DNA from: Candidatus Woesearchaeota archaeon CG10_big_fil_rev_8_21_14_0_10_37_12
GTDB lineage: Archaea > Nanobdellota > Nanobdellia > Woesearchaeales > ARS49
NCBI GenBank assembly: GCA_002762795.1
Contig: PCYA01000006.1
Span: forward strand, 1 to 37,498
Length of the DNA: 37,498 bases
Direction of reading: 5' to 3'
Part shown: piece after piece, positions 2,327 to 25,916 of the stretch
Layout: each line of letters opens with the position of its first letter
Numbering within the stretch: position 1 is the first letter of the stretch
Position numbers and translations under genes: made by a program
The notes under the pieces: model-generated
What the model was told of the DNA's origin: nothing
Databases searched by the model: none
Seen by the model: the letters and a program-made list of their open reading frames with translations, nothing else

Positions 2327-2948
2327 TTTTTATGAGTATTACGCGTGCAGGAGCGCCATCCCCTTTCTTTATTTTAAGCGGCAAACCGACAAACGTGTAC
2401 TTTCCGGATTTTGTATTTAACAGATCTAACCCTTCAAAAATTATGCAATTCTTGTTTAATAATTCGCAATGTGCTGCACAATAGCCTTGATGAAATTTTT
2501 GAATACTCAAATAATCAATGCCAACTGTTTTCACACCTTTCTTTTGCAAGTATGCTGCGCCGTCTTCTGTTAAGTAAACGAATTTTTTATTGAACGTCTT
2601 GCTTTTACGCGTGCTGTTTTTTGTTTTTAACAATACAATTTTTTCTGTGATTTTCTTTTTTGATAAACAACTAGCGCAAACACCCTTTCCAAACGGAACT
2701 TCAGTTGCATCAATTACTTGGCAAGGACCAACACAATAATCAAGAGCTACTTTATCAACGCCTTGTCCTCTTTTTCTGACATGTTTTGGAGCATCAATAT
2801 GCGTTCCTGTGTGTGATCCCATATGCAGTTCTGAGCTAAAACTTGTAGCATCTTTTTTTGCTTTGATTGGTTTTTGCTTGAATGCTTTGTTTCCAGGATA
2901 CACAATCATCTTATTGTGCAATGTCATAGATATATCAATGATTTTCAT
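2319..2948 (-). CDS. Cyclase-family metal hydrolase (kynurenine formamidase-like)
   Basis: A 209-residue member of the cyclase / kynurenine formamidase family (PF04199-type), metal-dependent hydrolases of formamide and related cyclic bonds. The metal-binding signature HMGSHTGTHIDAPKHV lies at about residues 42-57, preceded by the typical MTLHNKMIVYPGN start. VKTVGIDYLSIQ and HCELLNKNCIIFEGLDL match the conserved second half. The start overlaps the gnd stop as ATGA. Its place directly after gnd in an operon lacking a recognisable 6-phosphogluconolactonase makes lactone hydrolysis an attractive but unproven role. Other family members hydrolyse N-formylkynurenine or isatin. Confidence 0.8.
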   Translation of the reverse strand: MKIIDISMTLHNKMIVYPGNKAFKQKPIKAKKDATSFSSELHMGSHTGTHIDAPKHVRKRGQGVDKVALDYCVGPCQVIDATEVPFGKGVCASCLSKKKITEKIVLLKTKNSTRKSKTFNKKFVYLTEDGAAYLQKKGVKTVGIDYLSIQKFHQGYCAAHCELLNKNCIIFEGLDLLNTKSGKYTFVGLPLKIKKGDGAPARVILIKNE

Positions 2949-3838
2949 TTTTTCTTAACAGCGTGCCCTCCAAACTCGTTTCGCATTGTTGCAATTAGCT
3001 GTGCGCAGCCTTTTTTCTTTCTCGAACGTTGGCGCATCATTCTTGCTTCATGCAAAACCTTCATCTCTGCAAGTTTTTCCAGTTTTTGCATTTCTTTTTC
3101 TGTTTCTCCTTTTGGAACCTGACAAGCAATTTGTTCAAGGTAATCTTTGCGTTGGAACGCATCCCATAACCAACTCATTAAACGACTTTCTACGATACTT
3201 CCATGTGCGTAGACTTTACATACTTGTTTCAGATCAGTTCCAAACGTTGGTGCATGTTTTTCTACTGCTAAAAATCCTTCATTAATCGCACCCATCATCC
3301 CATATTCTATGCCATTGTGAACCATTTTAACAAAATGCCCTGCACCAGATGTTCCCATGTACCCATATCCATTTTTTACACACATATCTTTGAAAAGTTT
3401 TTCAACTGTTTTGAATACTTTTTTATTGCCACCAATCATCATACACGCGCCGTATCTTGCACCTTCAATTCCGCCAGACGTTCCGCAGTCAAGATAATGA
3501 ATGCCTTTCTTTTTCAGGTTTTTATAACGCTGCATAGAATCTTTGAAATAGGAGTTGCCTCCATCAATGACAACATCATCTTTATTTAATAATGAAACGA
3601 GTTTTTTTAATGTATCATCAACTGGTTTGCCTGCAGAAATCATGAGCCAAATAATTTTTCGCTTTGGTAGTTTGCTCATTAGTTCTTCAAACGAATAAGC
3701 TGGAATAAGACCTTTTTTTGCAAGTTTTCTTGTTGGTTCTGGTGACCTGTTAAATCCGATAATTCTATGTTTGTGTTCCAGCAAGTTCAATACCATGTTA
3801 GATCCCATTCTTCCAAGACCTATGAATCCCATGTTCAT
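2945..3838 (-). CDS. gnd: 6-phosphogluconate dehydrogenase, short type
   Basis: Oxidatively decarboxylates 6-phosphogluconate to ribulose 5-phosphate. The protein begins with the dinucleotide fold [13 protein letters not shown] and NRSPEP at the end of beta-2. [10 protein letters not shown] and [14 protein letters not shown] are the substrate-binding signatures, and [15 protein letters not shown] carries the catalytic Lys. About 297 residues is typical of the short archaeal/bacterial Gnd rather than the 470-residue enterobacterial form. I choose the ATG at 3838 because it overlaps the zwf stop as ATGA and has GAGGTGG about 8 bases before it; an ATG three codons upstream (3847) is possible. 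Cofactor preference cannot be read with certainty. Confidence 0.92.
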
Positions 3839-5208
3839 ACATTCCACCTCATGTTATGTTGTTTAGTAAATTTTTCCAGTGCTTTAGGACCGTCTGAGCC
3901 TTGTTTGTACGTGTGAACGTTATGTTTTTTTGATTTGATTCTATCTATTGCCTTCCATTGATATTCTATTTCATCATTACGTACAAAACGCGATTGGTCA
4001 CCGTTAATAACTGCTTGTAAGACTGTTTCATACGCGCTTGGTGTGTTTGCTGCGAATAAGCAACTGTGACAAAAATTCATTTTTACAGGCATGGTTTTGC
4101 TTTCACCAGGAGATTTAGCATTTAATTCGATAGCAAAACCAAGATCTGGTTGGATACGAATTTCTAAACGATTGGTAGCTTCAGGGCAAGGATCAAGCAA
4201 GCATTTCGGTCTTTTAAACTGGATCAGTATACTAACTTGGTTTTTTTCAAGCTTTTTTCCTGTTTTCAAAAAAAAAGGAACACCTTTCCATCTCGTATTA
4301 TTAATTTCAAGGTGCAATGCTGCAAATGTTTCTGTTCGGGAATTTTTTTCGACATTTGATTCTTTTGTGTACTGTTCATATTGTCCCAGCAAAACATCTT
4401 TTGTTTTTACTTTTTTGAGAATTCGTGCTTTCTCATCTCGTATATTATCTGCGCTCAATCTTTCAGGCTCTTCCATTGCGGTTAATGCTAGTAATTGAAG
4501 CAGGTGATTTTGTACAACATCACGTAATGCTCCTGTTTTATCGTAAAAATTCCCTCGTTTTTCAACACCGAGTTTTTCAGAAAGAACAATTTGTACGTTA
4601 TCAACATATTTTCTGTTCCACAAAGGTTCAAAAACAGTGTTAGCAAAACGTATAAATACGATGTTTTCAACAATTTCTTTACTTAGATAATGATCAACAC
4701 GGTACACTTGATCTTCTTTAAACACTCGTTGGATACACTTGTTTATTTTTTTTGCGGACTTCAAATCATTACCAAAAGGTTTTTCATACACGACACGAGA
4801 CCAGCCTTTGGTTTTCGTAAGATTACTTTTCGAAAGATGTTTTGTAATGCTGTCAAACTGTTCAGGAAGCGTAGCGAGATAAAATAAACGATTTCCAGAC
4901 AAGCCTTGCTTTTTTTCCACTTCATCTAACGTATGCACAATTTTCTTGTATTCTGAAAAATCGTTAAAATCAATTGAAATGTAATGAAACGCTTTTTCCA
5001 ATTTGTTTAAAACACTTTTTTCTTTTCTTTTAATAAATGGTTTTGAAAGATTAAGCAATGCTTTGCTTTTTTGTTCAGATCGCGCAACGCCAACGATTGC
5101 ACACTTGTTTATCTTATTTTTTACAATCAAATTGTAAATTGCAGGGATGAGCTTTCGTTTTGCTAAGTCTCCTGTTGCTCCCATGATGATAAACGTGCAG
5201 TTATTCAT
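3835..5208 (-). CDS. zwf: Glucose-6-phosphate 1-dehydrogenase
   Basis: First oxidative step of the pentose phosphate pathway, glucose 6-phosphate to 6-phosphogluconolactone with NAD(P)H formation. The nucleotide motif is [19 protein letters not shown] near the N-terminus. [11 protein letters not shown] and [16 protein letters not shown] are the substrate/catalytic motifs, with the family RIDHYLGKE seen here as RVDHYLSKE, keeping the catalytic His-adjacent Asp. A length of 457 residues is normal. Start at 5208 because GGAGG lies about 7 bases upstream and the start overlaps the pgi stop as ATGAATAA. Bacterial-type Zwf is uncommon in archaea, so horizontal acquisition is likely. Confidence 0.95.
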
Positions 5209-6496
5209 GGAGCAACCTCCTTGTTTCTTTTTTGTACATTTCAACACTTGGCTGGTCAAACGGGTTCACATCCAATAAAAACGCAATATACATCATTTCG
5301 ATCATTTTCAACTGCAAAAACGCACCAACTGATTCTTCGTCTTTTCTGGTGAGTGTTGTTTCTGTGTATGGCCGTTTATTTTTTTGGTACGCTATTTGTA
5401 CACCTTGAATAATTGCGCTCATAATCTTACGCAGTGGCTTTTTTTGCAAGTCTGAAACAAGCACATCATACTCTTTGTAATTAGGCACTGAATAATTGTG
5501 ATTAAATTGTGTTGTGACAAAGTTTGTTAACTTATCTTGTGGACCTCCCAAGTATAATTGTGCCATGCTATGTAAATCAACGCTTCCGATGCTGACTGTT
5601 GGTGTTATTCCTGCGTTTACAATTTTTCCTTTTTTGTTTTTCTTTTTTCCGATGCTTTCTCCCATGAGTTGTCTGTACCATTTGCCAACGCTTTCCAAGT
5701 CAGTTGCAAAGAGAAAATGATCATATATGTTTCTTCCATGTTTGTTATGCAAATAAATGATGCTTGCACCGATTGCGGCAGGATTTTGTTTTATGTTTGT
5801 CGAAACACATTTTCTTCTCATCAAATCCGCACCATTGAGCAAAGCGTCAATGTTAATTCCCAGCATGCAAAAAGGGAACAAGCCAACAGGTGAAAGAACA
5901 CTGTAACGACCACCAACGTGTAATGGAATTTCCAGCGTTGAAAACGCGCTTTCATGGGCTAGAGTCCACAAATAGCTGTTCTTGTCTGTAATCACAACAA
6001 CATGTTTGTGCGCGTCTTTTTTGTACTTTTTCAGGATTTGCCAAAAAATTTCAAAATTTGCAATTGTTTCAGTAGTATGCCCACTTTTACTTACAGCAAC
6101 CAACAAAACGTTTTTTCTTTTTTTTAATTGCAGGCGCATTTCTGTTTCAATAATAAACAATTCATCAGGATCAACAGCATCTGCATACAACACTCTCGGA
6201 CTATTGTGTAAATTGTATGCTTTCCCAAGAAGTGCTTCCTGCACTGCAATTGTTCCAAGATTGCTCCCGCCAATACCAATCACAACAATAAGAGCTGGTT
6301 TGAACTTGTTTTTTTCTTTAATAAGAGTTTTAATTATTCTTATTTGCTTTTTATCCTGCGGAAGAAACACGCTTGCATATTCATTATTATAACTTGCTTT
6401 CTGAACGCGCTTAATTTCAGGAATGAGCCTGTTAACTGTAGTGTGAAGTTTTGTCTGCGATATTCTTGCATCTCTGTATGTGAATGAAACACTCAT
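5201..6496 (-). CDS. pgi: Glucose-6-phosphate isomerase
   Basis: Interconverts glucose 6-phosphate and fructose 6-phosphate and feeds the dehydrogenase encoded next. It belongs to the PGI superfamily: [31 protein letters not shown], and [16 protein letters not shown] (the PGI signature) are all present. At 431 residues it resembles the compact bacterial form and not the cupin-type archaeal PGI. First gene of the operon: ATG at 6496 has GAGGT three bases upstream and a TATA box CTTTATAAAG at 6533-6542. Confidence 0.95.
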
Positions 6497-7271: not shown

Positions 7272-7944
7272 AAAATTCACGAACAGAGAAAATAAGATTT
7301 TTGAAGTGCTTAACTTTTTTGTAGAACAAAAACTCAATTTCGTTGTGATTGGTGGTTATGCAGTGAGTGCATACAAGCACCGTTTTTCCATAGATGCAGA
7401 TCTCGTAATCAGAAAAGAAGACAAGGAAACATTTGCAAAGCTTCTAGAGAAAATGAACTTTAAGAAAACAATAATGAAATATCTTGATCATGTGTACGCT
7501 CCGGAATTTATCCGCTACGAAACAAAAGAAGAACTCTCTATCAGCATTGATTTACTGATTAACGGAGTTGGCTCACGAACAACAAACGCATCATTTAACT
7601 TAGAAGAATTAAAAAAGCACTCAAAACAAAGAAAGATACTCGGTACTGAAAAAGAAACAACAGTTCTTGTTCCTGACCGATCAATACTTGTCATATTAAA
7701 ACTTCACTCCGGCAGGCTTACTGATTTTCGAGACATCGTAGCCATATGTAAAAACCTCGATCACCAACTCATAAAAAAAATTATTTGGAGAGGAAAAAAA
7801 GAAATTGTAAGAGAAAACATCAAGAAACTACTTCAACTCATAGAAGAACCAAACTTTATCAACAGCTTCAAAGGTGTATTCGCAGAGAAAAAATATGATG
7901 CGGACATCCAAGAAGTGAAAAAACTCAAAAAACTACTTGACTGA
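7264..7944 (+). CDS. AbiEii-like nucleotidyltransferase
   Basis: A 226-residue member of the polymerase-beta-type nucleotidyltransferase fold. VVIGGYAVSAYKHRFSIDADLVI (about residues 25-47) gives the GG motif and the paired acidic DxD-type residues for metal and nucleotide binding. SIDLLINGV (about 93-101) supplies a further acidic position, and ILKLHSGRLTDFRDIVAI (about 143-160) matches the Lys/Asp region found in AbiEii/MNT families. Paired with an upstream winged-helix gene, it is a candidate toxin of a type IV-like (AbiE) module. Its target, for example a tRNA 3' end, cannot be inferred. Confidence 0.75.
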   Translation: MFEKFTNRENKIFEVLNFFVEQKLNFVVIGGYAVSAYKHRFSIDADLVIRKEDKETFAKLLEKMNFKKTIMKYLDHVYAPEFIRYETKEELSISIDLLINGVGSRTTNASFNLEELKKHSKQRKILGTEKETTVLVPDRSILVILKLHSGRLTDFRDIVAICKNLDHQLIKKIIWRGKKEIVRENIKKLLQLIEEPNFINSFKGVFAEKKYDADIQEVKKLKKLLD

Positions 7945-7991
7945 GTGTTTACAATCTGTTTAACCTTTGTGAAAAACTCGCACATCAAAGT

Positions 7992-8399
7992 TCATCTCTT
8001 ATTCTTTTTCTTGCTTACTGCTAACCATGTATCTTCATCACGCAATAAGTAGAGTGCGATAAATCCTGCAAGTACAGGCAGTGCAGCAATAAACAAATGA
8101 TTCTGACCAAAAGGGTTTAGTAATTGTTTCCAAGTTGATGCAGTTGAAATAAAATGTAAGAGCAATCCTATACCGTAAGAGAACCTCTTCCATAAGCCAA
8201 TAATAATGGCAAGAGCAAGTATTAATTCAAGTCCGCCAATGATATATGGAACACTTCCTCCTATTGGAAGTTTATAGAACATTTCAAAAATCTTAACGGT
8301 TTTATCACTCGCAACAAGCTTGTCAATTGCCCAAAGCAACAAGAAAACACCCAAACCAAGGCGTAAAACAAACAACCCTTTTTGTTTTGCTGATACCAT
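7992..8399 (-). CDS. DoxX family membrane protein
   Basis: A 135-residue integral membrane protein with four hydrophobic segments. The N-terminal LFVLRLGLGVFLLLWAIDKL and the central GGLELILALAIIIGLWKRFSYG are typical of DoxX/SURF4-like proteins, which often accompany thiol-redox enzymes. TATA-like TTTTATAAAC lies about 25-32 bases before the ATG. It lies just downstream of, and on the same strand as, the thioredoxin/CcdA fusion, which suggests a shared role in extracytoplasmic thiol redox, by inference. Confidence 0.8.
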   Translation of the reverse strand: MVSAKQKGLFVLRLGLGVFLLLWAIDKLVASDKTVKIFEMFYKLPIGGSVPYIIGGLELILALAIIIGLWKRFSYGIGLLLHFISTASTWKQLLNPFGQNHLFIAALPVLAGFIALYLLRDEDTWLAVSKKKNKR

Positions 8400-8443
8400 A
8401 CACGATTAATTGGGAGTTTTGTTTATAAAATTTATGCATTTCT

Positions 8444-10972
8444 TTATTTTACCAGTTCAAGTAGCCATTCTTCTACTGCAAATATTATTTTTTGAAATGT
8501 TGATGTTCCTACGTACTGGTTGAACACGGTAAGCGTTCCTGAAAAGATGAGATAACCAATTGTTATGAATAAGAGTCCTGATATGAGTGACGTGGTATGA
8601 ATTGTGTACGTTCGTTTACCCAAAGAAAAATACAGTTCTTTTCCTTTGATTATCTTCCAGAGCTTGCTTGTTTTGTTAAGTTTGCTTAAGTATGTTGAAA
8701 ACAGTATGAGTGGTAGTGCAAGCCCTATTGCGTACGCAAACAATAAAATGCCTCCTGTGAGTGTTGAACTTGCTGTCGAAGCTAATAATAAGATTGCAAC
8801 AAGTATAGGACCAATGCACGGAGTCCAGGAAAGCCCAAAAATTCCACCAAACAAAAACGCACTTGTGTACGTTGTTGGTTTGTTTTGCTTAATATGCAAT
8901 CCGGAAAAGCCTTTCCCAAGCAAAATGTACACTCCGAACAAGACAAGCAGAATGCCTGCAACTTGTGAAAAAACTGTAAGGTGTGTTTTAAAGAAGTTCC
9001 CTACAAAGGTTGCACTCATACCAAGCAAAGAAAACACCAGGGCAAGACCAAAAAAGAATGCAAGAGACATGCCTTTTACATTTTTCTTTGACGCTTCAAA
9101 CGTGTACGCAATGTACGCTGGTAAAATAGGTAATGTACACGGTGAAATAAATGATAATAACCCTGCAAAAAACGCAACGAACAACAAAAGAAAGATAGAG
9201 TTATCAAAACTGTTCAAACCTTCCTCACTCGCAACAAATTCTGTTGCCTGATTTGACACTTTATCATTAACAAAATTATTCACCCAAAAAGTTTGCAGTT
9301 GTTTTTGCTCAATATTCTCAATATTTGTTTTTTTAGAATTGTATTCTGCAACAAGATTTGACTGAGAAGCGAACTGTGCAGCTTTCATAATATAATATCC
9401 TCTATCAAGCCCCCCAGCTTCTGAGATTTTGCTACCTAATGTTTTAATGCCGGCATTCAAATATGATACATCACCTGTTTGCGTATAGAGTTTTAATAAA
9501 GCATAAGCAATAACTCCATTTTCTTCTGTTGGCTTTGAGAGATCAATATTCTCTCCAGGAGCGTATAATTCAGTATCAGGACTGTTGCGCTCAAAAAACC
9601 CTCCACTATTCCAATCATACAAGTTTTCCAAACTATAAGTTGCAATCTTCCGGGCAGTTTGCAGATATTCTCCATCTTCCAACAAATCATGCCCTTCTAT
9701 AAATACAAGTAAAAGATGTGCGTTATCTAATAAACTTCCCTGCACGCCTTTACTTCCATCTTGTTTGTAATAGTGATACGCTCCAAATTCATCAACCATG
9801 TGTTGTGAGAAAAAATCAAGAGATTTTTTTGCCATTTCTTTATATTCATATTTGCCTGTTTCCTGCCACAAATACAAATACGTTACGATTGCTTCTGCAT
9901 TCCACTCAGCATATTTTGTTTTTTCAACTCTTGGCTTCTCTGCTGGTCGGGGATTTTTTCCATAATATTCATTCTCTCCATGCACGTCCGTGTTGCCGTA
10001 AAAACCTCCGCTCTTTTCATCATACCAATTGGTTTGAATGTACGTGTTTGTTTTCTCAACAACTTCTTTTGCAAGTTGATTATCAGGATCAAGAGTCAGC
10101 AAGTGACTATACGTTTTCAATAATTTTACGTTATCATACAACATTTTCTCATAATGCGGAGGAGTCCAATCGCGCTGCGTTCCGTACCTGTGAAAGCCAC
10201 CCTCAACTGGATCAAAGAGGTTGTAATTCGTTTCTATTTCTTCAACTTTAGTGTATTGATTTTGCAGTGTGTTTTGTACTAACGTTAAAAACTGTTCATT
10301 TTCTGTTAATTCATACGTTTCTAAAGCAAAACCTAACGCTTTGCCCTGTGGAAATTTTTGTCCTGTCCCAAAACCGCCGTGAGTAGAATCATAAACTTGA
10401 AGTGTATGATAGGAATAACCATTAACGAGATTGGTTAATTGATTTTCTGATGGAATAACAGGAGTTTCTTTTTTGTACTCATACGCAAGCTCTGTTGCAA
10501 ACCCATTATTGTTGACATGATCAACTGCTTGTTTCATATTCACAAGCATGTTTTGTATGGGTCTTGGTCCGGAATATCCAAATAACCGTTCTCTACTTGG
10601 CGTGAGTATTGTTGTTGATGGCCAGCCACCTTCAAGATATTTTCTTGTCAAATCCTGTCTTTTATCTGCATCAACGTATATCGGGATAAATTTTTCATTT
10701 ATTGTTGGATAAACATCTTGATGGTAAATGTAATCATCACTTGTATACACGTGACACCAATAACACCAACTTGGAGCGGTGAGAAGCAAGAAAATTGGCT
10801 TGTTTTTTTTAATTGCTTCATTAAACGCATCAGAACCATAATCTCTCCATTCTATTCTTCCAGAAGTGCGCATTTCTTCAGCATGCTCAAACGTGTAATG
10901 TGAAGTAGCAGTTGCAGAAACAGACATGACAAGCAATAGCACGAAAAACCACAAAAACCCCTGCTCCCTCAT
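8444..10972 (-). CDS. DUF255/SPATA20-like thioredoxin-domain protein fused to CcdA-type membrane domain
   Basis: A large exported protein, about 842 residues. A signal peptide (FLWFFVLLLVMSVSATAT) leads into a thioredoxin-like DUF255 domain with active site APSWCYWCHVY at about residues 65-75. Then comes a six-hairpin (alpha/alpha) domain: KFPQGKALGFALETYE, PPHYEKMLYDNVKLLKTY and KTKYAEWNAEAIVTYL are characteristic of the YyaL/SPATA20 family. From about residue 590 to the end is a CcdA/DsbD-beta-like membrane domain with the two redox cysteines in ISPCTLPILPAY and WTPCIGPIL. Electrons would move from cytosolic thioredoxin through CcdA to the outward CxxC. The ATG at 10972 is chosen because the longer frame starts at TTG and a TATAAT-like box lies about 25 bases upstream. 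Confidence 0.9.
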   Translation of the reverse strand: MREQGFLWFFVLLLVMSVSATATSHYTFEHAEEMRTSGRIEWRDYGSDAFNEAIKKNKPIFLLLTAPSWCYWCHVYTSDDYIYHQDVYPTINEKFIPIYVDADKRQDLTRKYLEGGWPSTTILTPSRERLFGYSGPRPIQNMLVNMKQAVDHVNNNGFATELAYEYKKETPVIPSENQLTNLVNGYSYHTLQVYDSTHGGFGTGQKFPQGKALGFALETYELTENEQFLTLVQNTLQNQYTKVEEIETNYNLFDPVEGGFHRYGTQRDWTPPHYEKMLYDNVKLLKTYSHLLTLDPDNQLAKEVVEKTNTYIQTNWYDEKSGGFYGNTDVHGENEYYGKNPRPAEKPRVEKTKYAEWNAEAIVTYLYLWQETGKYEYKEMAKKSLDFFSQHMVDEFGAYHYYKQDGSKGVQGSLLDNAHLLLVFIEGHDLLEDGEYLQTARKIATYSLENLYDWNSGGFFERNSPDTELYAPGENIDLSKPTEENGVIAYALLKLYTQTGDVSYLNAGIKTLGSKISEAGGLDRGYYIMKAAQFASQSNLVAEYNSKKTNIENIEQKQLQTFWVNNFVNDKVSNQATEFVASEEGLNSFDNSIFLLLFVAFFAGLLSFISPCTLPILPAYIAYTFEASKKNVKGMSLAFFFGLALVFSLLGMSATFVGNFFKTHLTVFSQVAGILLVLFGVYILLGKGFSGLHIKQNKPTTYTSAFLFGGIFGLSWTPCIGPILVAILLLASTASSTLTGGILLFAYAIGLALPLILFSTYLSKLNKTSKLWKIIKGKELYFSLGKRTYTIHTTSLISGLLFITIGYLIFSGTLTVFNQYVGTSTFQKIIFAVEEWLLELVK

Positions 10973-11022
10973 ACGAGCAAACCACAAAAGAGATTATAAA
11001 AGAGTTATGAATTTGAACAGGT

Positions 11023-11628: not shown

Positions 11629-12020
11629 AAAATGATTTGTTCCTTGTATTTGTACTTTAGTATTTGTACTTTATAGACTTCTGCGACTTTTGAGAAGTCA
11701 TCTGTGATGTATCGTTCAGTAAGCGTGCAATCAACAGTTGTTCCGTTATAGAGTCCTTGTACGAATGCCTCTATGCCTTGTGCGAATGTGTTGCTTCGTA
11801 ATTGCTGCTCGTTTAGGCGCTGAACTTTTTCACTGGCTACGGTTTGTGCTTGTGTTGAGTTTTGCTTTCTTTTCTGTTCTTCAACCTTTTTGATAATTTC
11901 GTCAAGTGTTTCTTGCGCTTGTTCTCTTTCTTGCTTTGCTTCTTTTAATAGTTCTTCATTCTGGGCAAGTCTTTGTTTTGAATCGAAAGTTTTAAATAAA
12001 CTATATGATAACTTTATCAT
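11601..12020 (-). CDS. Hypothetical coiled-coil protein, 5' end uncertain
   Basis: 139 residues as read from the ATG at 12020. Residues about 15-75 are a strongly predicted coiled coil (LAQNEELLKEAKQEREQAQETL and onward, rich in Glu, Lys and Gln). The first 13 or so codons lie inside the TATA box and palindrome of the divergent ArsR gene, and I found no later ATG, GTG or TTG before the coiled coil. The gene is therefore either started back-to-back with ArsR or is a 5'-truncated remnant cut by arrival of the ArsR cassette. A 14-base tandem repeat (TATTTGTACTTTAG-like, about 11647-11674) encodes the KYKYK near its C-terminus. Confidence 0.5.
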   Translation of the reverse strand: MIKLSYSLFKTFDSKQRLAQNEELLKEAKQEREQAQETLDEIIKKVEEQKRKQNSTQAQTVASEKVQRLNEQQLRSNTFAQGIEAFVQGLYNGTTVDCTLTERYITDDFSKVAEVYKVQILKYKYKEQIILCTFGLRKQ

Positions 12021-12022
12021 AT
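11990..12022 (+). promoter_or_regulatory. TATA box and perfect palindromic operator of ArsR gene
   Basis: TTTTAAATAAA (about 11990-12000) is centred about 26 bases before the ArsR ATG at 12021, so the mRNA is probably leaderless. ATATGATAA-CT-TTATCATAT (12003-12022) is a perfect 9-bp inverted repeat with a 2-base spacer that overlaps the start point and the start codon. This is the size and position expected for an ArsR-family operator. Confidence 0.65.
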
Positions 12023-12356
12023 GTTGAAGTCATTAGAGATTCAAAGAACAGACAATTTACATAGATTATTCTTTAAAGCATTTTCAAATCACACAAGATT
12101 GGAGATTATTCAATTATTGGAAAAAAAACCGCTTACAGTAACAGAAATATGCAATAAAACTGGATTTGAGCAGAGCAGAGTATCTCATAATCTCAAGTGT
12201 TTGGAAAACTGCGGTTTTGTAAAAGCTACACCAAGTGGTAATTTCAGAAAATATGAATTAGATCCTGAAACAATCATCCCTATTGTTGATTTGTTTGATA
12301 AACACATCAAGAAATACAAGAAAAGACTTGAATGTTGCGAGGTAATTGGAAAGTGA
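12021..12356 (+). CDS. ArsR-family metal-responsive repressor
   Basis: A 111-residue winged-helix repressor. The core is FSNHTRLEIIQLLEKKPLTVTEICNKTGFEQSRVSHNLKCLENCGFV (about residues 17-63): a helix-turn-helix with Cys on or near the recognition-helix end. A C-terminal LECCEV pair could be a thiol metal site. The downstream zinc-ribbon gene is related to one in the HxlR cassette 2.5 kb away, and this repressor is clearly related to the copper-operon ArsR at 25.6-25.9 kb (shared EQSRVSH and C-terminal KYKK/KYHK-C pattern). The inducing metal is unknown; Hg, Cu or other soft metals fit the thiols. Confidence 0.85.
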   Translation: MLKSLEIQRTDNLHRLFFKAFSNHTRLEIIQLLEKKPLTVTEICNKTGFEQSRVSHNLKCLENCGFVKATPSGNFRKYELDPETIIPIVDLFDKHIKKYKKRLECCEVIGK

Positions 12357-12703
12357 CTGATGGTTGTGATACTAAAGGGAACTTTAAAAATATCTTAATT
12401 GAGTCAAAGTTCCCTAAGCTAACTTTGAATTTCGACGATAAAATTTACAGGGGCGCACCGCCATTCACCAAAAAACTGAATAATTCAAAGTTAACTAAAG
12501 ATAATAAAGAAGAAAAATTAATTGGAAATGTAACTTGCCCTAAATGCGGACATAAACAGCCAATGGAAATACCCACTTCTTCATGTCAGGCATTTTACAA
12601 GTGTGAAAGGTGTGGCAAGATCATATCAGCAAAAAAAAGCTGTTGTGTATTTTGCGATTATGGAGATCGTAAATGCCCAGTAGCAGAGGAGCATCAAAAA
12701 TGA
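12332..12703 (+). CDS. Zinc-ribbon / CCVFCDYGD protein, chimeric 5' end
   Basis: The last ~60 residues form a double-knuckle Cys protein: NVTCPKCGHKQ, then YKCERCGKI, then the signature CCVFCDYGDRKCP. It is closely related to the protein at 14803-15000, and relatives of this small family are usually found beside Mer-type membrane proteins, where they may bind or hand over soft metals. Codons before about residue 57 come from the end of the ArsR gene and from the inserted repeat at 12374-12499. No ATG, GTG or TTG lies between repeat and zinc ribbon, so either the fusion is translated from the overlapping ATG at 12332 or the gene has lost its start. The stop overlaps the next ATG as ATGA. Confidence 0.6.
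   Translation: MLRGNWKVTDGCDTKGNFKNILIESKFPKLTLNFDDKIYRGAPPFTKKLNNSKLTKDNKEEKLIGNVTCPKCGHKQPMEIPTSSCQAFYKCERCGKIISAKKSCCVFCDYGDRKCPVAEEHQK
12374..12499 (+). repeat. Copy A of dispersed MITE-like repeat
   Basis: This stretch matches the reverse complement of 26707-26893 from end to end: AAAGGGAACTTT at the left, TATCTTAATTGAGTCAAAG, TTCCCTAAGC.AACTTTGAAT, TCGACGA, CGCCATTCAC, AAAAAACTGA and TAATTCAAAGTT at the right. It lacks a ~57-base block with two hairpins that the other copy has. It lies between the ArsR gene and its zinc-ribbon partner and replaces the latter's expected start. Confidence 0.75.
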
Positions 12704-12843
12704 AGAAAGAAGATAAAAAACTATTATACGCAGGAGGAATTGGAGGAGTAATCACATGGAAGAATTTAAAATGGCTTCGTAAAAAGGCATCACTTTTATT
12801 TTTAAATCACTCAATTTTATGGTTTCTTTTTTATCATAACTAA
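12700..12843 (+). pseudogene. Truncated membrane-protein ORF at ATPase insertion
   Basis: A 47-residue frame begins with ATG overlapping the zinc-ribbon stop (ATGA). Residues 1-19 (MKKEDKKLLYAGGIGGVIT) look like the start of a small Mer-type membrane protein. From about base 12752 the frame runs antisense through the 3' end of the convergent ATPase gene and has no recognisable character. The second cassette has a MerC/MerT-like gene in the same place after its zinc ribbon, so I read this as the 5' remnant of such a gene. Confidence 0.45.
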
Positions 12844-14008
12844 TTAGAATGCCTTCTTTTAATTTGAATCTTTTTAAAAAAGCAACCAGTCCGCCATAAT
12901 CTTGTTTTGCATATTTGATTTCAATAGGCAATATTGTATTTGTATCTTTGTTTATTTTTATGACATCAACTTCGTGTTTGTATTGATCTCTCCAAAAGAA
13001 CTCGGCATCAAGATTCAAAATAATGCTTAATTCAAATACGATTCCTTTTAGTTCATTTTTTTCGACTAATTCTGGTGCAAATATGACTGGATAATATTTT
13101 TTTAATGATCTTTGAGTTTTTCTTGTATTTTTTGAGAAATTATACAACTTCTTTATAAGAAATGATTTTTCCAGATAATCAAGATAATTTGAGACTGACT
13201 GCCTTGAAATAGAAAGCTCTTTAGCCAGTTGTTCCATATTCAGAATCGTGCCAGGACTCAGGAGAATTATTCTAAATATGCTTTCAACTGCTGAAGGATT
13301 ATTTATGGAAAAAATTTGCAGCATATCCCTATAGATTATTTTTTCTATGACTGTTTCCTGAATGTATTTTTTAATTGTTTCTCTGTTTTCATTGATCAAT
13401 TCAGGAAATCCGCTTGAAATCAGATAATTATTAAATTCTCTTAAAATATCGTTTTTGTATAATTGAAAATTTTCAAATTTTTGTTGTTTAAATTGCAAGT
13501 ATTCTTTAAAAGTTAAAGGATTTATTTTAAATTCGAAGCATCTTCCTGCAAGGCTTTCCTTTGATTTTTTACGAATGAATAAAGATTCTGAACCAGAAAC
13601 TGCAAGTTTTATATTTTTAAAGTTGTCATATATTCTTTTTATTTGTTCTTCCCAGTTTTCTAGTTTTTGCACTTCATCAAAAAGAAAAAAATATTTTTCA
13701 GTGTTAAGATCTTTGTTCATTAATTGAGAATAGCAATTTAGTACTTGTTTCATGGTTGCGTTTCTAAAATTATCAAAAGAAAAATAACAAATATTGTTTG
13801 CTCCGAATTTGTCAAGATTATCTGCAATTAATTTTAAAAGCAAAGTAGTTTTTCCAACTCTCCTCAAACCAGTGAGCGCGATTATTTGTTTTGTGTTAAT
13901 AAATTGACTTAGTTGTTCATAAATTTCTCGTGGTTTAAAATCTATTGTGAATTCGCTTTTCCACCATTTGTTTGACTCTTCAAGAGCCTCAATAATCATC
14001 TCATTCAT
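12752..14008 (-). CDS. AAA-type ATPase with DUF4143 C-terminus
   Basis: A 418-residue COG1373-type ATPase. Walker A is TGLRRVGKTTLLLKL (about residues 46-60), Walker B YFFLFDEVQKL (about 106-116), followed by LAVSGSESLF as sensor. After a winged-helix-like segment (NMEQLAKELSISRQSVSNYLDYLEKSFL), the DUF4143 region carries the restriction-endonuclease-like pattern EVDVI..ILPIEIKYAK. These proteins are widespread, often strain-variable archaeal genes of unknown function. The gene lies between the two Mer-like cassettes in opposite orientation and appears to interrupt the first. Confidence 0.9.
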   Translation of the reverse strand: MNEMIIEALEESNKWWKSEFTIDFKPREIYEQLSQFINTKQIIALTGLRRVGKTTLLLKLIADNLDKFGANNICYFSFDNFRNATMKQVLNCYSQLMNKDLNTEKYFFLFDEVQKLENWEEQIKRIYDNFKNIKLAVSGSESLFIRKKSKESLAGRCFEFKINPLTFKEYLQFKQQKFENFQLYKNDILREFNNYLISSGFPELINENRETIKKYIQETVIEKIIYRDMLQIFSINNPSAVESIFRIILLSPGTILNMEQLAKELSISRQSVSNYLDYLEKSFLIKKLYNFSKNTRKTQRSLKKYYPVIFAPELVEKNELKGIVFELSIILNLDAEFFWRDQYKHEVDVIKINKDTNTILPIEIKYAKQDYGGLVAFLKRFKLKEGILISYDKKETIKLSDLKIKVMPFYEAILNSSM

Positions 14009-14024
14009 TTGTGTTCATTCAAAT

Positions 14025-14049
14025 TAACATAAATTATCAGTTTATGTTA
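14025..14049 (-). promoter_or_regulatory. Inverted repeat upstream of ATPase gene
   Basis: TAACATAAA / TTTATGTTA is a perfect 9-bp inverted repeat separated by 7 bases, 17-41 bases upstream of the ATPase ATG at 14008. It overlaps the likely promoter position and may be an operator, or the mark of an element end. Confidence 0.4.
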
Positions 14050-14092
14050 GTTGGAACGTACATGGATATTTAAATGTTTCGGATTTTTTAGA

Positions 14093-14110
14093 AAGTAATA
14101 AATACTTACT
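14093..14110 (+). promoter_or_regulatory. TATA box with AGTAA/TTACT operator before HxlR gene
   Basis: AATAAATAC (about 14097-14105) lies about 26-34 bases before the ATG at 14131, predicting a leaderless or near-leaderless mRNA. It is bracketed by AGTAA (14094-14098) and TTACT (14106-14110), with further TACT motifs downstream, a likely HxlR binding site. Confidence 0.45.
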
Positions 14111-14130
14111 AAAAGATACTAACTACTCTG

Positions 14131-14490
14131 ATGAAAGCAAAACCCGTACAAACAATGCCTGTTGGCTGCAAAATGAAAGGGCAAGGCTATTGTCCAAGAC
14201 CCTTAGAATGTGCAGCTTTTTTCTTGAGCAAAAAATGGACGCTTTCTGTGCTTGTGACAATAGGCAATTTTAAACAATTACGATTCAATCATTTGCTTGA
14301 CAAGCTTGAAGAAATCAGCCCAAAAGTGTTATCACAACGATTAAGCGAACTCGAAAATAAAAAGCTTATCACACGCACAGTCTTTATTGAAAAACCACCA
14401 CGCGTAGAATACGCCCTAACAAAACAAGGCAGAAACTTGTACAAATCAATCCTTCCATTAATGAACTGGGCAAACAACTATGAAGAGTAA
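14131..14490 (+). CDS. HxlR-family transcriptional regulator with Cys-rich N-terminus
   Basis: A 119-residue HxlR winged helix: CAAFFLSKKWTLSVLVTIGNFKQLRFNHLLDKLEEISPKVLSQRLSELENKKLI is the standard family core, followed by the wing and KQGRNLYKSILPLMNW. The N-terminus holds three cysteines (GCKMKGQGYCPRPLEC), as in redox- or metal-sensing HxlR/HypR proteins. The stop overlaps the MerT-like gene by 11 bases, so it heads the metal cassette and probably regulates it. Confidence 0.88.
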   Translation: MKAKPVQTMPVGCKMKGQGYCPRPLECAAFFLSKKWTLSVLVTIGNFKQLRFNHLLDKLEEISPKVLSQRLSELENKKLITRTVFIEKPPRVEYALTKQGRNLYKSILPLMNWANNYEE

Positions 14491-14821
14491 ACTTACAACA
14501 GGAAGTGGAATTGGAACAGGTTTTTCCTTAGCGTGCTGTTTTGGATTGCTTAGCTTGTTACTTGGCTTGTTTGGGTTAACAACTGCAATTGCGGCCGTAA
14601 ACAAATACGGAGATTACGTATTCTTTCCATTGTATTCACTTTTTGCAACCCTATTCATCAGTTCAATTTGGAACTGGAAAAGAAAAATAGCAAAAACAGT
14701 TTTGATACTGCTCATACTCGTAATTACCATTTGGCTTATGACATTTGGAATTGTGTACACAGGATTAATCATACTTGGAATAATCATTGGGGGTTTGCTC
14801 ACATGGAAGATCAACACATAG
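14480..14821 (+). CDS. MerT-like small membrane protein
   Basis: A 113-residue membrane protein with about four hydrophobic segments. The first contains a Cys pair, SLACCFGLLSLLLGLFGL, in the position of the MerT Cys-Cys motif, and the remaining segments are short. It lies between a regulator and a Cys-rich zinc ribbon and overlaps both, so a role in soft-metal (mercury-type) uptake or handling is the best guess. No mercuric reductase is present in the window, so the metal could be something else. Confidence 0.7.
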   Translation: MKSKLTTGSGIGTGFSLACCFGLLSLLLGLFGLTTAIAAVNKYGDYVFFPLYSLFATLFISSIWNWKRKIAKTVLILLILVITIWLMTFGIVYTGLIILGIIIGGLLTWKINT

Positions 14822-15000
14822 GCAACGTAACGTGCCCAAAATGCGACCACAAACAACCAATGAATATTCCCAGCAATAGTTGTCAGACATTTTACAAGTG
14901 CAATAACTGCCAAGAGATCATCAAAGCAGAAAAAACCTGCTGTGTATTTTGCGATTATGGAGACAGAAAATGCCCTGTTGCACATGGAGGAACAAAATGA
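14803..15000 (+). CDS. Zinc-ribbon / CCVFCDYGD protein
   Basis: A 65-residue protein starting at the ATG at 14803, which lies inside the end of the MerT-like gene. It has the same Cys layout as the 12.5-kb copy: NVTCPKCDHKQ, FYKCNNCQEI, CCVFCDYGDRKCP, and about 70% identity over the shared region by eye. The longer reading frame upstream is only the antiparallel shadow of the overlapping membrane gene. Relatives accompany Mer-type transporters, so it probably binds soft metals or zinc in the cytoplasm. Confidence 0.8.
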   Translation: MEDQHIGNVTCPKCDHKQPMNIPSNSCQTFYKCNNCQEIIKAEKTCCVFCDYGDRKCPVAHGGTK

Positions 15001-15371
15001 AAGCACTCTCAGGATTAGGAAGCGCAGGAAGCGTGCTCGCCGCATTCGGCTGTCCTGCCTGCTTGCCCGCACTCGGCGCATTAGTATCTGCACTCGGAAT
15101 AAGCTTTACCGCGGGAAAAACCACGCTTCTCATTATCACGGCAGCATTGCTTCTCAGCGGTCTAGCAGGATTTTACATAAACAAGAGAAAACACAAAAAA
15201 CACAAATACTTCTTTATAGCATTAATTGTGACAGCATTCATTGGCATTGCAAGCTACCAACAACTACCAGAATACACATTTTACTCAGGAGCAGGAGTGC
15301 TACTTCTCACTGCCTTTTTTGATTATAAAGAAGTTAAAAAACAAAATTGTTGTAATGTGAAGAGAAAGTAA
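14997..15371 (+). CDS. MerC/MerT-like membrane protein
   Basis: A 124-residue protein with four hydrophobic segments. The first carries GSAGSVLAAFGCPACLPALGALVSALGI, which matches the MerT/MerC first helix with its Cys pair (here CPAC). The last residues include another Cys pair (QNCCNVKRK). The start is ATG at 14997, overlapping the zinc-ribbon stop as ATGA. Together with the MerT-like gene it would form the membrane part of the cassette. Confidence 0.75.
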   Translation: MKALSGLGSAGSVLAAFGCPACLPALGALVSALGISFTAGKTTLLIITAALLLSGLAGFYINKRKHKKHKYFFIALIVTAFIGIASYQQLPEYTFYSGAGVLLLTAFFDYKEVKKQNCCNVKRK

Positions 15372-20373: not shown

Positions 20374-22689
20374 CTACAACCTCTTCTTCTTCAACAAAAG
20401 TGAGTTTGTAACAACACTCACCGAGCTTAATGCCATTGCCGCACCTGCGATCACTGGGGACAATAACATTCCTGTTGGATAATATAATACGCCTGCGGCA
20501 ATAGGGACACCTAACACATTGTAAATAAATGCCCAGAACAAATTCTGCTTAATCTTTCTCATAGTCAGCTTACTAAGTTTAATTGCTTTTGGAACATCAC
20601 GCAAATCATTCTTCATCAATACAATATTGCCTGTTTCCATTGCAACATCAGTGCCAGAACCCATTGCTATACCAATATCTGCCTGTGCAAGTGCAGGTGA
20701 ATCATTAATGCCATCGCCAACCATTGCAACTTTAAATTCGCCATTATTTTGCAACTTTTTAACGTAGCCTGCTTTATCCTCAGGAAGTACTTCTGCAAAC
20801 ACGTTCTTAATGCCTGCCTGTTTCGCAATTGCATGCGCAGTACGCTTATTATCGCCTGTAATCATGTACACTTCCAAACCGAGCTTTTGCAAAGATTGTA
20901 CAGCTTCTTTTGAAGTATCTTTGATAACGTCAGCAACTGCAACAACACCAAGAAATTCTTTTTTTGTTGAAAGCAACATTGCAGTTTTTCCTTCGCCTTC
21001 AAGCTCTTCCATCTTTTTCTTTAATGAATCAAATTTGATTTTGTGCTCGTTCATCAATTTTGCATTGCCAAAATAATATGTTTCACTGCCAATTTTCGCA
21101 CTAATTCCATGACCGGGAATTGCTTTAAAATCACTTGTTTTCTTCAGTGTTGTTTTTTGTTTTTTCGCATGCTCAACAATTGCTTCTGCAAGCGGATGCT
21201 CAGAACCCTGTTCAATACTCGCAGCAACCTGCAACAAATGATCTTTAATTATTCCTTTTGCAGGAACTAAATCAGTAAGCGCAGGCTCACCTTTTGTAAT
21301 CGTGCCAGTCTTATCAAACAAAACATACTTGAGCTTGTGCGCTGTTTCCAAAGCTTCGCCGCCTTTAATCAAAATACCATGCTGAGCGCCCTTACCAGTA
21401 CCAACCATGATTGCTGTAGGTGTAGCAAGGCCAAGCGCACACGGGCACGCAATGATAAGAATTGCAACCGCTATCACAATACCAAAACCAACACCTTCCA
21501 AAAAAGTCCAAACAATAAAAGAAACTAATGCAATCACAATAATCACTGGAACAAAATATGCAGAAATTAAATCTGCAAAACGCTGAATTGGTGCTTTTGT
21601 TCCCTGTGCATCCTCGATGAGCTTCACAATTCTTGACAGTGTTGTATTCTCTCCTATTTTTGTTGCCTTAAACTTGAAACTTCCATGTTTGTTAATAGTA
21701 GCACCAATAACTTCATCGCCTGTTTTTTTACCAACAGGAATACTCTCGCCAGTAATCATACTCTCATCAATACTGGAATGTCCTTCTGTGATTACACCAT
21801 CAACAGGAATTTTTTCACCAGGTCGAACAAGAATAATATCATTTAATTTAACATCATCAATAGCGATTTTCATTTCTTTCCCTGCTCGAATCACTGTTGC
21901 AATTTTTGGGGACAAACCAACAAGCTTTTTGATAGCCTCGCTTGTTTTGCCCTTCGCTCTAGTCTCAAACAATTTGCCAAGAATAATTAAAGTGATAATC
22001 GTTGTTGCTGCTTCAAAATACTGACCTTCAGGCTCCATCGCATAAAAGACAATAAACACACTGTAAAAATAAGCAGCAGATGTGCCAATAGCTATTAGCG
22101 TATCCATATTTGCAGAACCATTTTTCAACGCAATCCATGCACTTTTGTAAAATCTTGCTCCGACAATAAACTGAACAGGCGTTGCCAAAACAAACAACAA
22201 ACCCATGGAACCAGGCAAATAATAACCAAAATAACCAAGACCATCACGCATGAAAAACATTCCAATAATCAACGCAGGTATAGAAAAAATCAAACTCAAA
22301 TGAAACAATTTTGTTAATTTGCTCAACTCTTCTTTTTCTCTTTTCTCCCGAATTTCGTAAGGATTTACTTTTTTTGCCTTTGCTTCCACATGAGATTCTT
22401 CAGATTCTATTTTCTCATCAACAGTTATTTTTTTTCCCTCTTCTTTCTTTTCCCCTTCCTTTTTTTCTTCTTCCTGATTCAAAGGAGTTGCCTTGTACCC
22501 TTTCTTCTCAACTGCCTGCACAAGATCAGAAATCTTTGCTTTGCCTTCATCATACTCAACAGTAGCCTGCTCAGTAGCATAATTAACGTTCGCGTCTTTA
22601 ACACCATCAACTTTCTTTAACGCTTTTGTTAACACGTTAGCACAGCTTGCACAGTGCATTCCACCTATAGATAAATCTGCTCGTCTCAT
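20374..22689 (-). CDS. copA: Copper-translocating P1B-type ATPase
   Basis: Exports Cu(I) across the membrane using ATP. An N-terminal HMA domain holds GGMHCASC (about residues 8-15), followed by a long Glu/Lys-rich linker. The core has TGES in the actuator, the membrane motif [12 protein letters not shown], phosphorylation site [30 protein letters not shown] and [24 protein letters not shown]. The last helices have YNVLGVP and [12 protein letters not shown], the Cu(I)-type (P1B-1) ligand pattern. 771 residues is normal. The ATG at 22689 overlaps the upstream stop as ATGA. Confidence 0.96.
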
Positions 22690-24065
22690 GATCTTGCTTC
22701 CCTTGATAAGTTTCTCACATAATAAATTGTTACAGCAAACACGACCAAACCAAGAACAATCCATGCAAACATCATCTCAAAAGACACATCCCTATAATAA
22801 TTCTTATTAATTATTGCCAAATCGAGTTCCTTGTCTTTTGTGAATTTTTTATTGAACGAATCTCTGAAAGATACTGTTGTTGGAAGATTCAATTCATCTG
22901 ATTTTGCAAGAACTTTAAAAGTTCCTTCGCCTGATTCTCCTGGTTTAAGAGTTCCAAGATACACCTTACTTGGTGCAGTCAATAGTTTAAAATCCTCTGT
23001 TTCTGTAACTTCAAGAGAAACATACCTTAATTCAGACAATCCTCTATTCGCCACAACAACCGTTACATCCCCTGCAACATCTTCTGAACGCAAAGTACTG
23101 CCCTTAAGCTCCACCAAAACATCAGGTTGCATGTTTACAGTTACAGGAACTTCAGTAAACGTGTTAAACGGATTATTATCCTCATCATTATATGAAACAA
23201 AAACAGGCAACACGTACACGTTAGGCATTGCATCAGGCATTGCCTGCACGTCAAACGTAACCTGCACAATTTGCCCAGGACCTAACGAATGTATCCTTTT
23301 CTGCGTTGGTGTTCCTGCAGGAGCAATACCTTTGAAACTCATAGCATTAACAGATGATACTGATTTTTCGCTATCTGACATTCCTGTTGATTTTTGAGAA
23401 GACATTCCAAGAGGAGATTTGCCACTTGATATTTGCATGTTAACTTCTTCCAAGCGCGCATTAATCATTGCCTGCATCGAGATCATATTATTCATATTCT
23501 TATTAAAATCATACGTCCCAGTCATATCAAGAACAACATCAACATTCTTCACAGGACGATCATCAAGATTGATCAAAGTTAAAACGACCTGACCAGTCTC
23601 ACCAGGAACAAGTTCCTCAGGAATCTGCTGAACACGATCAACACTAATTCTTGAATCAAAAGTTACAACATTAATATCAAACTGCTTCTCCGCATAAACA
23701 TTCTTATTCCTATTACTACCATACCTCACACGCAACGGAGCAATACCATCACGAGCATCATCCGCAATACGCACACGGAACTGCAAACGCTGCGTTCCTG
23801 TTAAAGAACCCAATTTTGCTGCGCGCTCACTATCCTGAGTCTTCAATATTGTAAACGGATACTCTTCCACAACATCAAACCACGCTTCTGTTGTAGGATC
23901 TCCCTGATTTGAAAGCTCAAAAAATACATCAACAGTCTGACCCGGCTGAGAAGGCATCGGAAGATAATTCACAAGATTGGCATCCAATATTGGCGGTCTT
24001 GCTTCAACAATAAGCGCAGAAAGTGCGAGCAATAAAATTATCAAAATAGTTTTTTTGGCTTTCAT
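22686..24065 (-). CDS. Secreted, membrane-anchored COG1361-like protein with Met-rich segment
   Basis: 459 residues: an N-terminal signal peptide ([17 protein letters not shown]), then several Ig-like beta domains of the archaeal COG1361 type ([60 protein letters not shown]). A C-terminal membrane helix ([19 protein letters not shown]) is followed by RNLSREARS. Between domains, about residues 190-240, is a Met/Ser-rich stretch ([22 protein letters not shown]) that could bind Cu(I) outside the cell. It overlaps both neighbours in the copper operon by ATGA junctions, so it is expected to work with CopA or the cupredoxin. Confidence 0.8.
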
Positions 24066-24271
24066 TTTACTTTGTACTCTCCTAATGCCTCAATGGCTTT
24101 GACAACTTCCTCTTTTGATTTATTTGTTTCACACTCAATTGTTCCTTTTTGAGCAGACTCATCAATTACTACTTTGATATTTGTTGCACCAAGATCTTCA
24201 AGTTCACCTTCTATTAACATCTTACAACTCTTACAATGCACGCCGCTTATGTTTAATTTTATATGAGTCAT
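24062..24271 (-). CDS. HMA-domain copper chaperone
   Basis: A 69-residue free HMA domain, likely delivering Cu(I) to CopA. The metal loop is SGVHCKSCKML (about residues 9-19), followed by the ferredoxin-like fold pattern LEDLGATNIKVVIDES and VVKAIEALGEYKV. It sits immediately after the cupredoxin stop and overlaps the COG1361-like gene by ATGA. Confidence 0.9.
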   Translation of the reverse strand: MTHIKLNISGVHCKSCKMLIEGELEDLGATNIKVVIDESAQKGTIECETNKSKEEVVKAIEALGEYKVK

Positions 24272-24676
24272 TCATACCACCTCGAACTTTCCAATTCCCA
24301 TTTTCATTGAACAAAAAATATCAAACTCTCCTGTTTTTGTTGGCGTGAATTCAATAATATTATCTGAATTGCTCACTAATTTTCTTACACCAAACTCAGG
24401 AATAACTACATCACGCAAACAACCTTGAACTGAACTCATATCAACAACCATTCGCACACGAATATCTTTATTCAGCGTTGATGGTGCAAGCACATAGCCG
24501 TAATTTTGAACTGATAAAATGACTTCCTGCACATCCCCTGAGTAAATGCTTGTTTGAGGCATTAGTTCTGTCGTATTCGTCTGTATTCCAACATACACAA
24601 AAAAAGCAAGAACGATAATTACGCCTGCTATCAATAATCCTTTATTTTGTCTGTTAGTTTTTTTATTTATAGTCAT
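24272..24676 (-). CDS. Membrane-anchored cupredoxin-like protein
   Basis: 134 residues with an N-terminal membrane anchor (KGLLIAGVIIVLAFFVYVGI) and one Greek-key cupredoxin domain facing outside. QGCLRDVVIPEFGVRKLV and IIEFTPTKTGEFDIFCSMKMGIGKFEVV match the Cupredoxin_1 type, in which Cys and Met (C in GCLRD, CSMKM near the end) replace the classic His ligands. Start at 24676 overlaps the upstream stop as ATGA. Probably receives or sequesters extracytoplasmic copper. Confidence 0.88.
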   Translation of the reverse strand: MTINKKTNRQNKGLLIAGVIIVLAFFVYVGIQTNTTELMPQTSIYSGDVQEVILSVQNYGYVLAPSTLNKDIRVRMVVDMSSVQGCLRDVVIPEFGVRKLVSNSDNIIEFTPTKTGEFDIFCSMKMGIGKFEVV

Positions 24677-25596: not shown

Positions 25597-25916
25597 GCCA
25601 TATCCCTCCAGCGAATACATTTACACTTGCACTTTTGTTTATGATATTTATCAACGTGCTCATCAATAATTTTCAAAAGCGGAATCATTAATTTTGGTTC
25701 AAGAGCATATTCTCTTGTTTTGCCTTTAACTTTACCAACCACAAAACCATGTTCTTTAAGCGTGCGCAAACCATGACTCACTCTGCTTTGCTCATAACCA
25801 AGTTTTGTGCATAAATCAGAAACAGTAAGCGGACCTTTACTCAGTAAATTTATGATATTCAACCTACAATTATCAGCCAAAACAATGAAAAAACTTTTGT
25901 ATGCGTGACAAATCAT
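25593..25916 (-). CDS. ArsR-family repressor of the copper operon
   Basis: A 107-residue winged helix: LADNCRLNIINLLSKGPLTVSDLCTKLGYEQSRVSHGLRTLKEHGFVVGK is the ArsR core. The C-terminus ends in a Cys cluster, KCKCKCIRW, preceded by DEHVDKYHK, a plausible Cu(I) sensor site. It is the first gene of the operon, and its TATA box lies about 25 bases before the ATG at 25916, making the mRNA leaderless. It is related to the ArsR at 12.0 kb. Confidence 0.9.
   Translation of the reverse strand: MICHAYKSFFIVLADNCRLNIINLLSKGPLTVSDLCTKLGYEQSRVSHGLRTLKEHGFVVGKVKGKTREYALEPKLMIPLLKIIDEHVDKYHKQKCKCKCIRWRDMA

Follow-up and report, generated by a model that had tools for sequence, protein, structure and literature searches.

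Two Cassettes for Mer-Related Proteins

The stretch of DNA analyzed in this study (the window, 37,498 nucleotides) is contig C2 (PCYA01000006.1) of Candidatus Woesearchaeota archaeon CG10_big_fil_rev_8_21_14_0_10_37_12, whose 1.35-Mb genome is 99.1% complete. It contains two cassettes in which a gene for a zinc-ribbon protein (ZnR) is found together with genes for a repressor and for relatives of the membrane proteins of mercury resistance (mer) operons. The open reading frames (ORFs) that a first-pass annotation had placed here were borne out by ORF calls and profile matches, as were its two unrelated repressors, ArsR (HTH_metalloreg) and HxlR (PF01638).

Cassette 2 (14131–15371) is a tight operon on the forward strand, whose four genes are all intact and follow each other in the order HxlR, MerT/MerF-like, ZnR-2, and MerC-like with overlaps of 11, 19, and 4 bases, respectively. 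The HxlR-type regulator (14131–14490) passed PF01638 with 80.4 bits against a gathering score of 20.8 and possesses a conserved N-terminal cysteine (Cys; C...GYCPRPLE). The MerT/MerF-like membrane protein (14480–14821) has an ACC pair in its first hydrophobic stretch, and this Cys-Cys pair and hydrophobic stretch are common to archaeal MerT homologs. Its match to MerF was below threshold (20.0 vs. 24.3 bits), and the Pfam profile scan gave no PF02411 (MerT) match. ZnR-2 (14803–15000), whose start codon was refined to ATG 14803, is 65 amino acid residues long with nine Cys. The MerC-like protein (14997–15371), whose start codon was refined to the ATG at 14997 within an ATGA overlap with ZnR-2, contains GCPAC in its first hydrophobic stretch and a C-terminal CC. 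It passed PF03203 (39.2 vs. 27.6 bits), with the Cys pair and the C-terminal Cys also present, and was below the NCBIfam cut-off for MerC (39.7 vs. 140). At 14018–14058, between an ATPase gene and the HxlR gene, lies a perfect 9-base inverted repeat (TAACATAAA-7-TTTATGTTA), a possible operator of either.

Cassette 1 (12021–12758), also on the forward strand, consists of genes for ArsR and ZnR-1 and the start of a MerT gene. The ArsR/SmtB repressor (12021–12356) passed HTH_metalloreg with 72.1 bits against a cut-off of 55. A palindrome, ATATGATAA-CT-TTATCATAT (12003–12022, forward strand), overlaps its start codon and is a putative operator; it matches exactly the pattern described below, for which 0.07 matches were expected by chance at up to three mismatches. 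A TATA-like box, TTTTAAATA (11990–11998, forward strand), is found 22–30 bases 5′ of the start codon and may act in the promoter; TTTAAATA-like boxes stand at equal spacing in the ArsR relatives. ZnR-1 (12521–12703) has all its Cys intact in an ORF open from 12332. However, neither ATG, GTG nor TTG was found between 12425 and 12563, and ATT 12521 stands at the position of the ATG in a related operon, L020. The stop codon of ZnR-1 overlaps, as ATGA, the MerT remnant (12700–12758), whose residues 1–19 match the intact MerT of L020 (74%), which confirms the truncated membrane ORF of the first-pass annotation as the start of a MerT. The match ends before the Cys-Cys pair, beside a gene on the reverse strand for an AAA_14/DUF4143 ATPase (12752–14008; G+C content, 27.7%), the 3′ end of which abuts the break. 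This ATPase gene is likely to be the cause, or a later neighbor, of the truncation.

Because ZnR-1 has no normal start codon near its domain, cassette 1 looks decayed in sequence, with ArsR and operator intact. Thus, the two cassettes are related as had been proposed, but are not of equal standing. The ArsR may still repress in trans although its own operon is broken.

The Zinc-Ribbon Protein Family

At the protein level, ZnR-1 and ZnR-2 share 70% identity, their DNA is 74–75% identical over about 180 bases, and both were above the NF041374 cut-off of 40 bits (66.0 and 66.4, respectively). Their likeness, which had been noticed at first reading, is therefore not due to chance. That ZnR might represent an unknown family was rejected, as it belongs to NCBIfam NF041374 (GDCCVxC), the GOS_B selenoprotein family. 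The invariant Cys set of this family (CPxC, C, CxxC, CxxC, C) is present. Across 27 members, C11, P12, C14, P23, C27, C33, C36, C47, C50, Y52, and C57 were invariant, and C46 was nearly so. Different from the family signature, ZnR-1 and ZnR-2 are Cys forms with KTCCVFC or KSCCVFC instead of GDCCVxC. The CPxC and CxxC motifs would fit one structural zinc, which would leave five conserved Cys, including CCxxC, for another job.

The structure model of ZnR-2 was good (pLDDT 85.5). Because it gave no significant fold match in the PDB (best E 0.7) and sequence searches returned weak zinc-ribbon matches only, the modeled fold tells nothing beyond a zinc ribbon. GOS_B is listed for this family, which includes selenoprotein members, in a 2026 selenoproteome review (PMC13188914). 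The 2008 paper in which GOS_B was found gave no functional evidence (PMC2398784), and a literature search on GDCCVxC returned nothing, so that we found no published function for NF041374/GOS_B.

An ArsR Clade and Operator Common to MerA and ZnR Operons

The ArsR of cassette 1 belongs to a clade that fronts MerA or ZnR genes in DPANN archaea. A search for MerA over a phylum sample of 371 genomes, which was run independently of this ArsR, identified genuine MerA genes (C-terminus ACCVE) at L140 and L145 of genomes G101 and G394, and they overlap genes for ArsRs that are 78 and 80% identical to that of cassette 1, respectively. In G290, MerA is one gene away from an ArsR of 75% identity. The ArsRs of ZnR operons also fell within this group, with identities of 85% (L020, an ArsR-cupredoxin-ZnR-MerT-MerP operon), 73% (L027), 69% (L024), and 61% (L026). 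Three Cys, candidate metal ligands, were kept in all nine clade members, among which the branching was not resolved. A second, separate ArsR clade also contains MerA-linked and ZnR-linked members.

The palindrome TATGAYAAnnTTRTCATATG spans the start codons of the clade ArsRs, with a TATA-like box 22–30 bases upstream. It was found at 12 places in 10 of the 371 genomes, and the reversed pattern used as control was found at none. Nine of these places are at a clade ArsR; the operon behind it includes MerA at three, ZnR at four, and MerTP at one, and at the ninth it continues past the contig end. In G101 the operator occurs twice, ahead of ArsR-MerA and ahead of ArsR-glutaredoxin-ZnR. At two other places (L156 and L157, in G351 and G269), the operator precedes an ArsR of another kind, which lacks these Cys and has an AAA gene next to it, and the last (G100, contig C17) is a stray away from any ArsR start. 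Because three of the 12 places are a different ArsR or a stray, the operator alone is no proof of a mer role. The recognition helices of the L156 and L157 ArsRs resemble those of the clade (TGFEQ..VSH). In the genome of the window, a search with two mismatches gave six matches compared with nine for the reversed control; since this is no more than the control, no second regulon member is claimed there. Judged from sequence, MerA and ZnR operons appear to share an ArsR operator regulon, of which we found no earlier description.

Mer Neighbors of ZnR in Other Genomes

In relatives, either ArsR or HxlR is found ahead of ZnR with MerT, MerC, MerP, MerTP, or MerA, which agrees with the earlier suggestion of a soft-metal unit, related to mer, whose regulators are exchangeable. 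For instance, a Hydrothermarchaeota contig (L026) encodes ArsR, ZnR, MerA, MerB, and MerTP in one row. Its MerA (538 bits vs. a cut-off of 454; C-terminus SCCVE) starts directly at the catalytic core, its MerB scored 97.5 bits against PF03243, and the fifth protein combines a MerT-like part with an HMA part. Two further genera (L021 and L023) also have the set HxlR-ZnR-MerC in intact form, L021 with a divergent MerT in addition; their MerCs are 46 and 28% identical to that of the window, with Cys kept. Six HxlR homologs have a common N-terminal Cys, and each is near a small Cys-bearing membrane protein; among them is another HxlR from the genome of the window (L003). In plasmids, where 348 of the records searched carry NF041374/GOS_B, the GDCCVxC gene comes after merT/merP or merTP in operons headed by ArsR or an annotated Hg(II)-responsive MerR, without merA, and such genes also occur in other metal islands.

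Among the 15 phylum-sample genomes carrying ZnR above the cut-off, seven have a strong MerT-like gene compared with 0.85 expected (Fisher p 3e-6), a figure biased upward, as is that for MerC, because the two profiles were seeded mainly from ZnR neighbors. Six of these seven genes adjoin ZnR within about 1.2 kb. The co-occurrence of MerC (3/3) is circular, given that its profile was built from those three sequences; the informative result is that no other strong MerC-like match was found in the 371 genomes by profile search. At L056 (4734–5363, Peregrinibacteria), a ZnR beside MerT has an apparent frameshift inside its domain.

Absence of a Mercuric Reductase

The first-pass annotation reported no mercuric reductase, and this holds genome-wide. 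MerA was found neither in the window nor in the whole genome, in which the best match (410 bits) is below the cut-off of 454 and lacks the C-terminal Cys pair. MerB also gave no match in this genome, and control genomes gave none either. As MerA was searched for and is absent, we do not classify the region as a mer operon. Because only G101 among the 15 sampled genomes with ZnR has a MerA over cut-off and the other 14 have none, the reductase-less state is the rule.

Two candidates were rejected as MerA. The flavoprotein on contig C11 of the genome of the window (G000; 7276–8619, L060) is a MerA-like FAD oxidoreductase that has no Cys pair at its C-terminus and fits best a general FAD oxidoreductase model, and the ‘MerA’ beside ZnR at L053 was not counted, as its end has no Cys pair. 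The former adjoins the gene for an HFX_2341-like regulator; regulators of this type also precede ZnR in L022 and have MerT-like genes nearby in L098 and L108.

Lack of MerA could also mean that such cassettes are the dead remains of mer operons, retained by chance after loss of merA. The visible decay of cassette 1 is in line with this, and merA-less Tn5563 mer loci have been termed defective (PMC4785139). The explanation is nevertheless improbable: in cassette 2 none of the four genes is broken and their starts and stops overlap, the set of HxlR, ZnR, and MerC has stayed intact in two other genera despite the low MerC identities given above, and absence of MerA extends to nearly all ZnR genomes of the sample.

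Proposed Role in Soft-Metal Handling

The region is probably a mercury-type (soft-metal) handling module that works without a reductase. The ligand is likely to be mercury or a metal of similar softness because close relatives put this ArsR type, its operator and ZnR next to MerA and MerB. As the same ArsR type and operator stand ahead of both glutaredoxin-ZnR and MerA in G101, one inducer, most simply Hg(II), is suggested for both. Mer membrane proteins of the MerT and MerC families move Hg(II) through Cys pairs. In cassette 2, HxlR would sense Hg(II) or thiol stress via its N-terminal Cys and derepress the operon; release of the promoter on Hg(II) is suggested for cassette 1 by the common ArsR and operator, the case for HxlR being weaker. 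The MerT/F-like and MerC-like proteins would then transport Hg(II), as such or in thiol complexes, via their paired Cys. In ZnR, one CxxC-CxxC zinc-ribbon site would serve the fold, and C27, C46, C47, C50, and C57 might accept the metal at the inner face and then retain or relay it. In MerA-bearing relatives the likely receiver would be MerA, whose N-terminal metal-binding domain is missing there; in this genome, candidate receivers are cell thiols, or a CopA-type ATPase at 20374 for export. Import is plausible, and the claim of sequestration is kept modest.

Several points weigh against this role. No MerA or MerB accompanies the cassettes, and Hg(II) import without reduction should harm the cell. 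To our knowledge, no HxlR regulator of mer operons has been described. We infer the binding or relay of Hg by ZnR from sequence, and the co-occurrence figures are inflated as described above. With the merRTP element Tn5563a, which has no merA, six strains became less tolerant of Hg and two became more tolerant (PMC4447125). Finally, ZnR genes have glutaredoxin neighbors at seven loci and Cu P-type ATPase neighbors at seven bacterial loci. The expectation that ZnR elsewhere is accompanied by Mer-like partners thus held at many loci and failed at these, where only glutaredoxin or the ATPase was found. Because of these neighbors, the ZnR family is not exclusively linked to mercury.

The glutaredoxin neighbors raise the alternative of a thiol-redox module, in which ZnR is a redox-active Cys/selenocysteine protein reduced by glutaredoxin, HxlR is a sensor of disulfide stress, and metals are secondary. 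Glutaredoxin genes are ≤70 bases from ZnR at the seven loci, which come from Woesearchaeota, Undinarchaeales, two other archaea, a DPANN archaeon, and Peregrinibacteria, and a glutaredoxin is also by ZnR in L072. Moreover, HxlR scores against the redox regulators RrpA/RrpB, and the family has selenoprotein members (PMC13188914). However, neither cassette of the window has a glutaredoxin, and the glutaredoxin-ZnR genes of G101 share ArsR type and operator with MerA, so that we regard this alternative as unlikely, if less so than dead remains.

Copper or another soft metal might instead be the true substrate, with the unit feeding a copper system nearby. At 20374–25901 on the reverse strand, the window carries a copper-type cluster for a second ArsR, an HMA/membrane protein, a cupredoxin-like protein, a secreted protein, and a CopA-type P1B ATPase. 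The Cu-type ATPases are ≤3 kb from ZnR in the seven bacterial loci, and L020 includes a cupredoxin gene. Against this, the nearest relatives of the ArsR stand ahead of MerA, an enzyme specific for mercury, no copper ATPase is ≤3 kb from any archaeal ZnR locus in the neighborhood table, and the copper cluster comes with a separate ArsR that is more distant (44% identical to that of cassette 1). Copper as the substrate is the least probable of the explanations considered.

Relation to Known Systems

Under the mercury-handling role, the module would be comparable to the transport half of a mer operon with an added metal relay, analogous to TRASH. The Sulfolobus mer operon has an ArsR-type regulator and a stand-alone TRASH protein, which is small, cytosolic, and rich in Cys and for which a part in Hg trafficking has been proposed (PMC3466566). 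It differs in that TRASH is another domain family, MerA is present and membrane transporters are missing. Elements of Pseudomonas and enterobacterial plasmids that appear to be of the Tn5563 merR-merT-merP type (PMC4785139; PMC4447125) likewise combine Mer transporters, a GDCCVxC gene, and a metal regulator without merA. Different from the window, however, they are bacterial, MerR-regulated, and transposon-borne, with MerP and without MerC, and the bacterial plasmid ZnRs are <60% identical to those of the window. Operons of Bacteroidota (Adhaeribacter, Hymenobacter, and Dyadobacter) have ArsR, MerT, and GDCCVxC together, with no merA in the stretch shown, but their MerT and MerP are fused and they have neither HxlR nor MerC. 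The Hydrothermarchaeota operon L026 has a homologous ArsR (61%) and ZnR (58%) and differs by its reductase and organomercury lyase.

In plasmid merR elements, which appear from gene order to be Tn5563, the GDCCVxC gene is between merP and the transposase gene. It follows merP at 3495–3707 in both L148 and L152, in the former beside a Tn3-family transposase gene. Published gene lists of Tn5563 do not include it (PMC4785139; PMC4447125). If Tn5563a also carries this gene, it was left out of the published reading of the phenotype. The results thus bear on merA-less merRTP elements, whose published Hg phenotype varies by host strain and whose gene lists omit GDCCVxC.

A 2012 survey of 272 mer operons reported archaea to be essentially without Mer transporters and MerC to be limited to Beta- and Gammaproteobacteria (PMC3466566). 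Relatives of MerT, MerP, MerTP, and MerC, together with the ArsR/operator regulon, are now seen in DPANN archaea and Hydrothermarchaeota. The families of the parts are known; for their HxlR-MerT/F-ZnR-MerC combination in DPANN archaea, recognized here from sequence, no earlier description was found. NF041374/GOS_B thereby becomes testable as a mercury-binding partner. A broader proposal is offered tentatively and may well prove wrong: GDCCVxC (GOS_B) proteins could be mercury-binding acceptors from MerT/MerC at the membrane, either standing in, as free proteins in MerA-bearing operons, for the missing N-terminal domain of MerA or forming the end point of a reductase-less defense in DPANN archaea and merA-less bacterial transposons. 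If true, a selenoprotein family without a function since 2008 would have gained one, and a mer variant would exist that stores mercury and does not reduce it.

Other Features of the Window

On the reverse strand, a single ORF of 847 amino acid residues (8444–10987) combines a DUF255-like thioredoxin/glycosidase-like part with a CcdA/DsbD-like membrane domain (TsoB and DsbD matches), and a DoxX-like gene at 7992 adjoins it. Consecutive genes similar to those for 6-phosphogluconate dehydrogenase, glucose-6-phosphate dehydrogenase, and glucose-6-phosphate isomerase are found at 2945–6496, also on the reverse strand, which is notable in a small DPANN genome.

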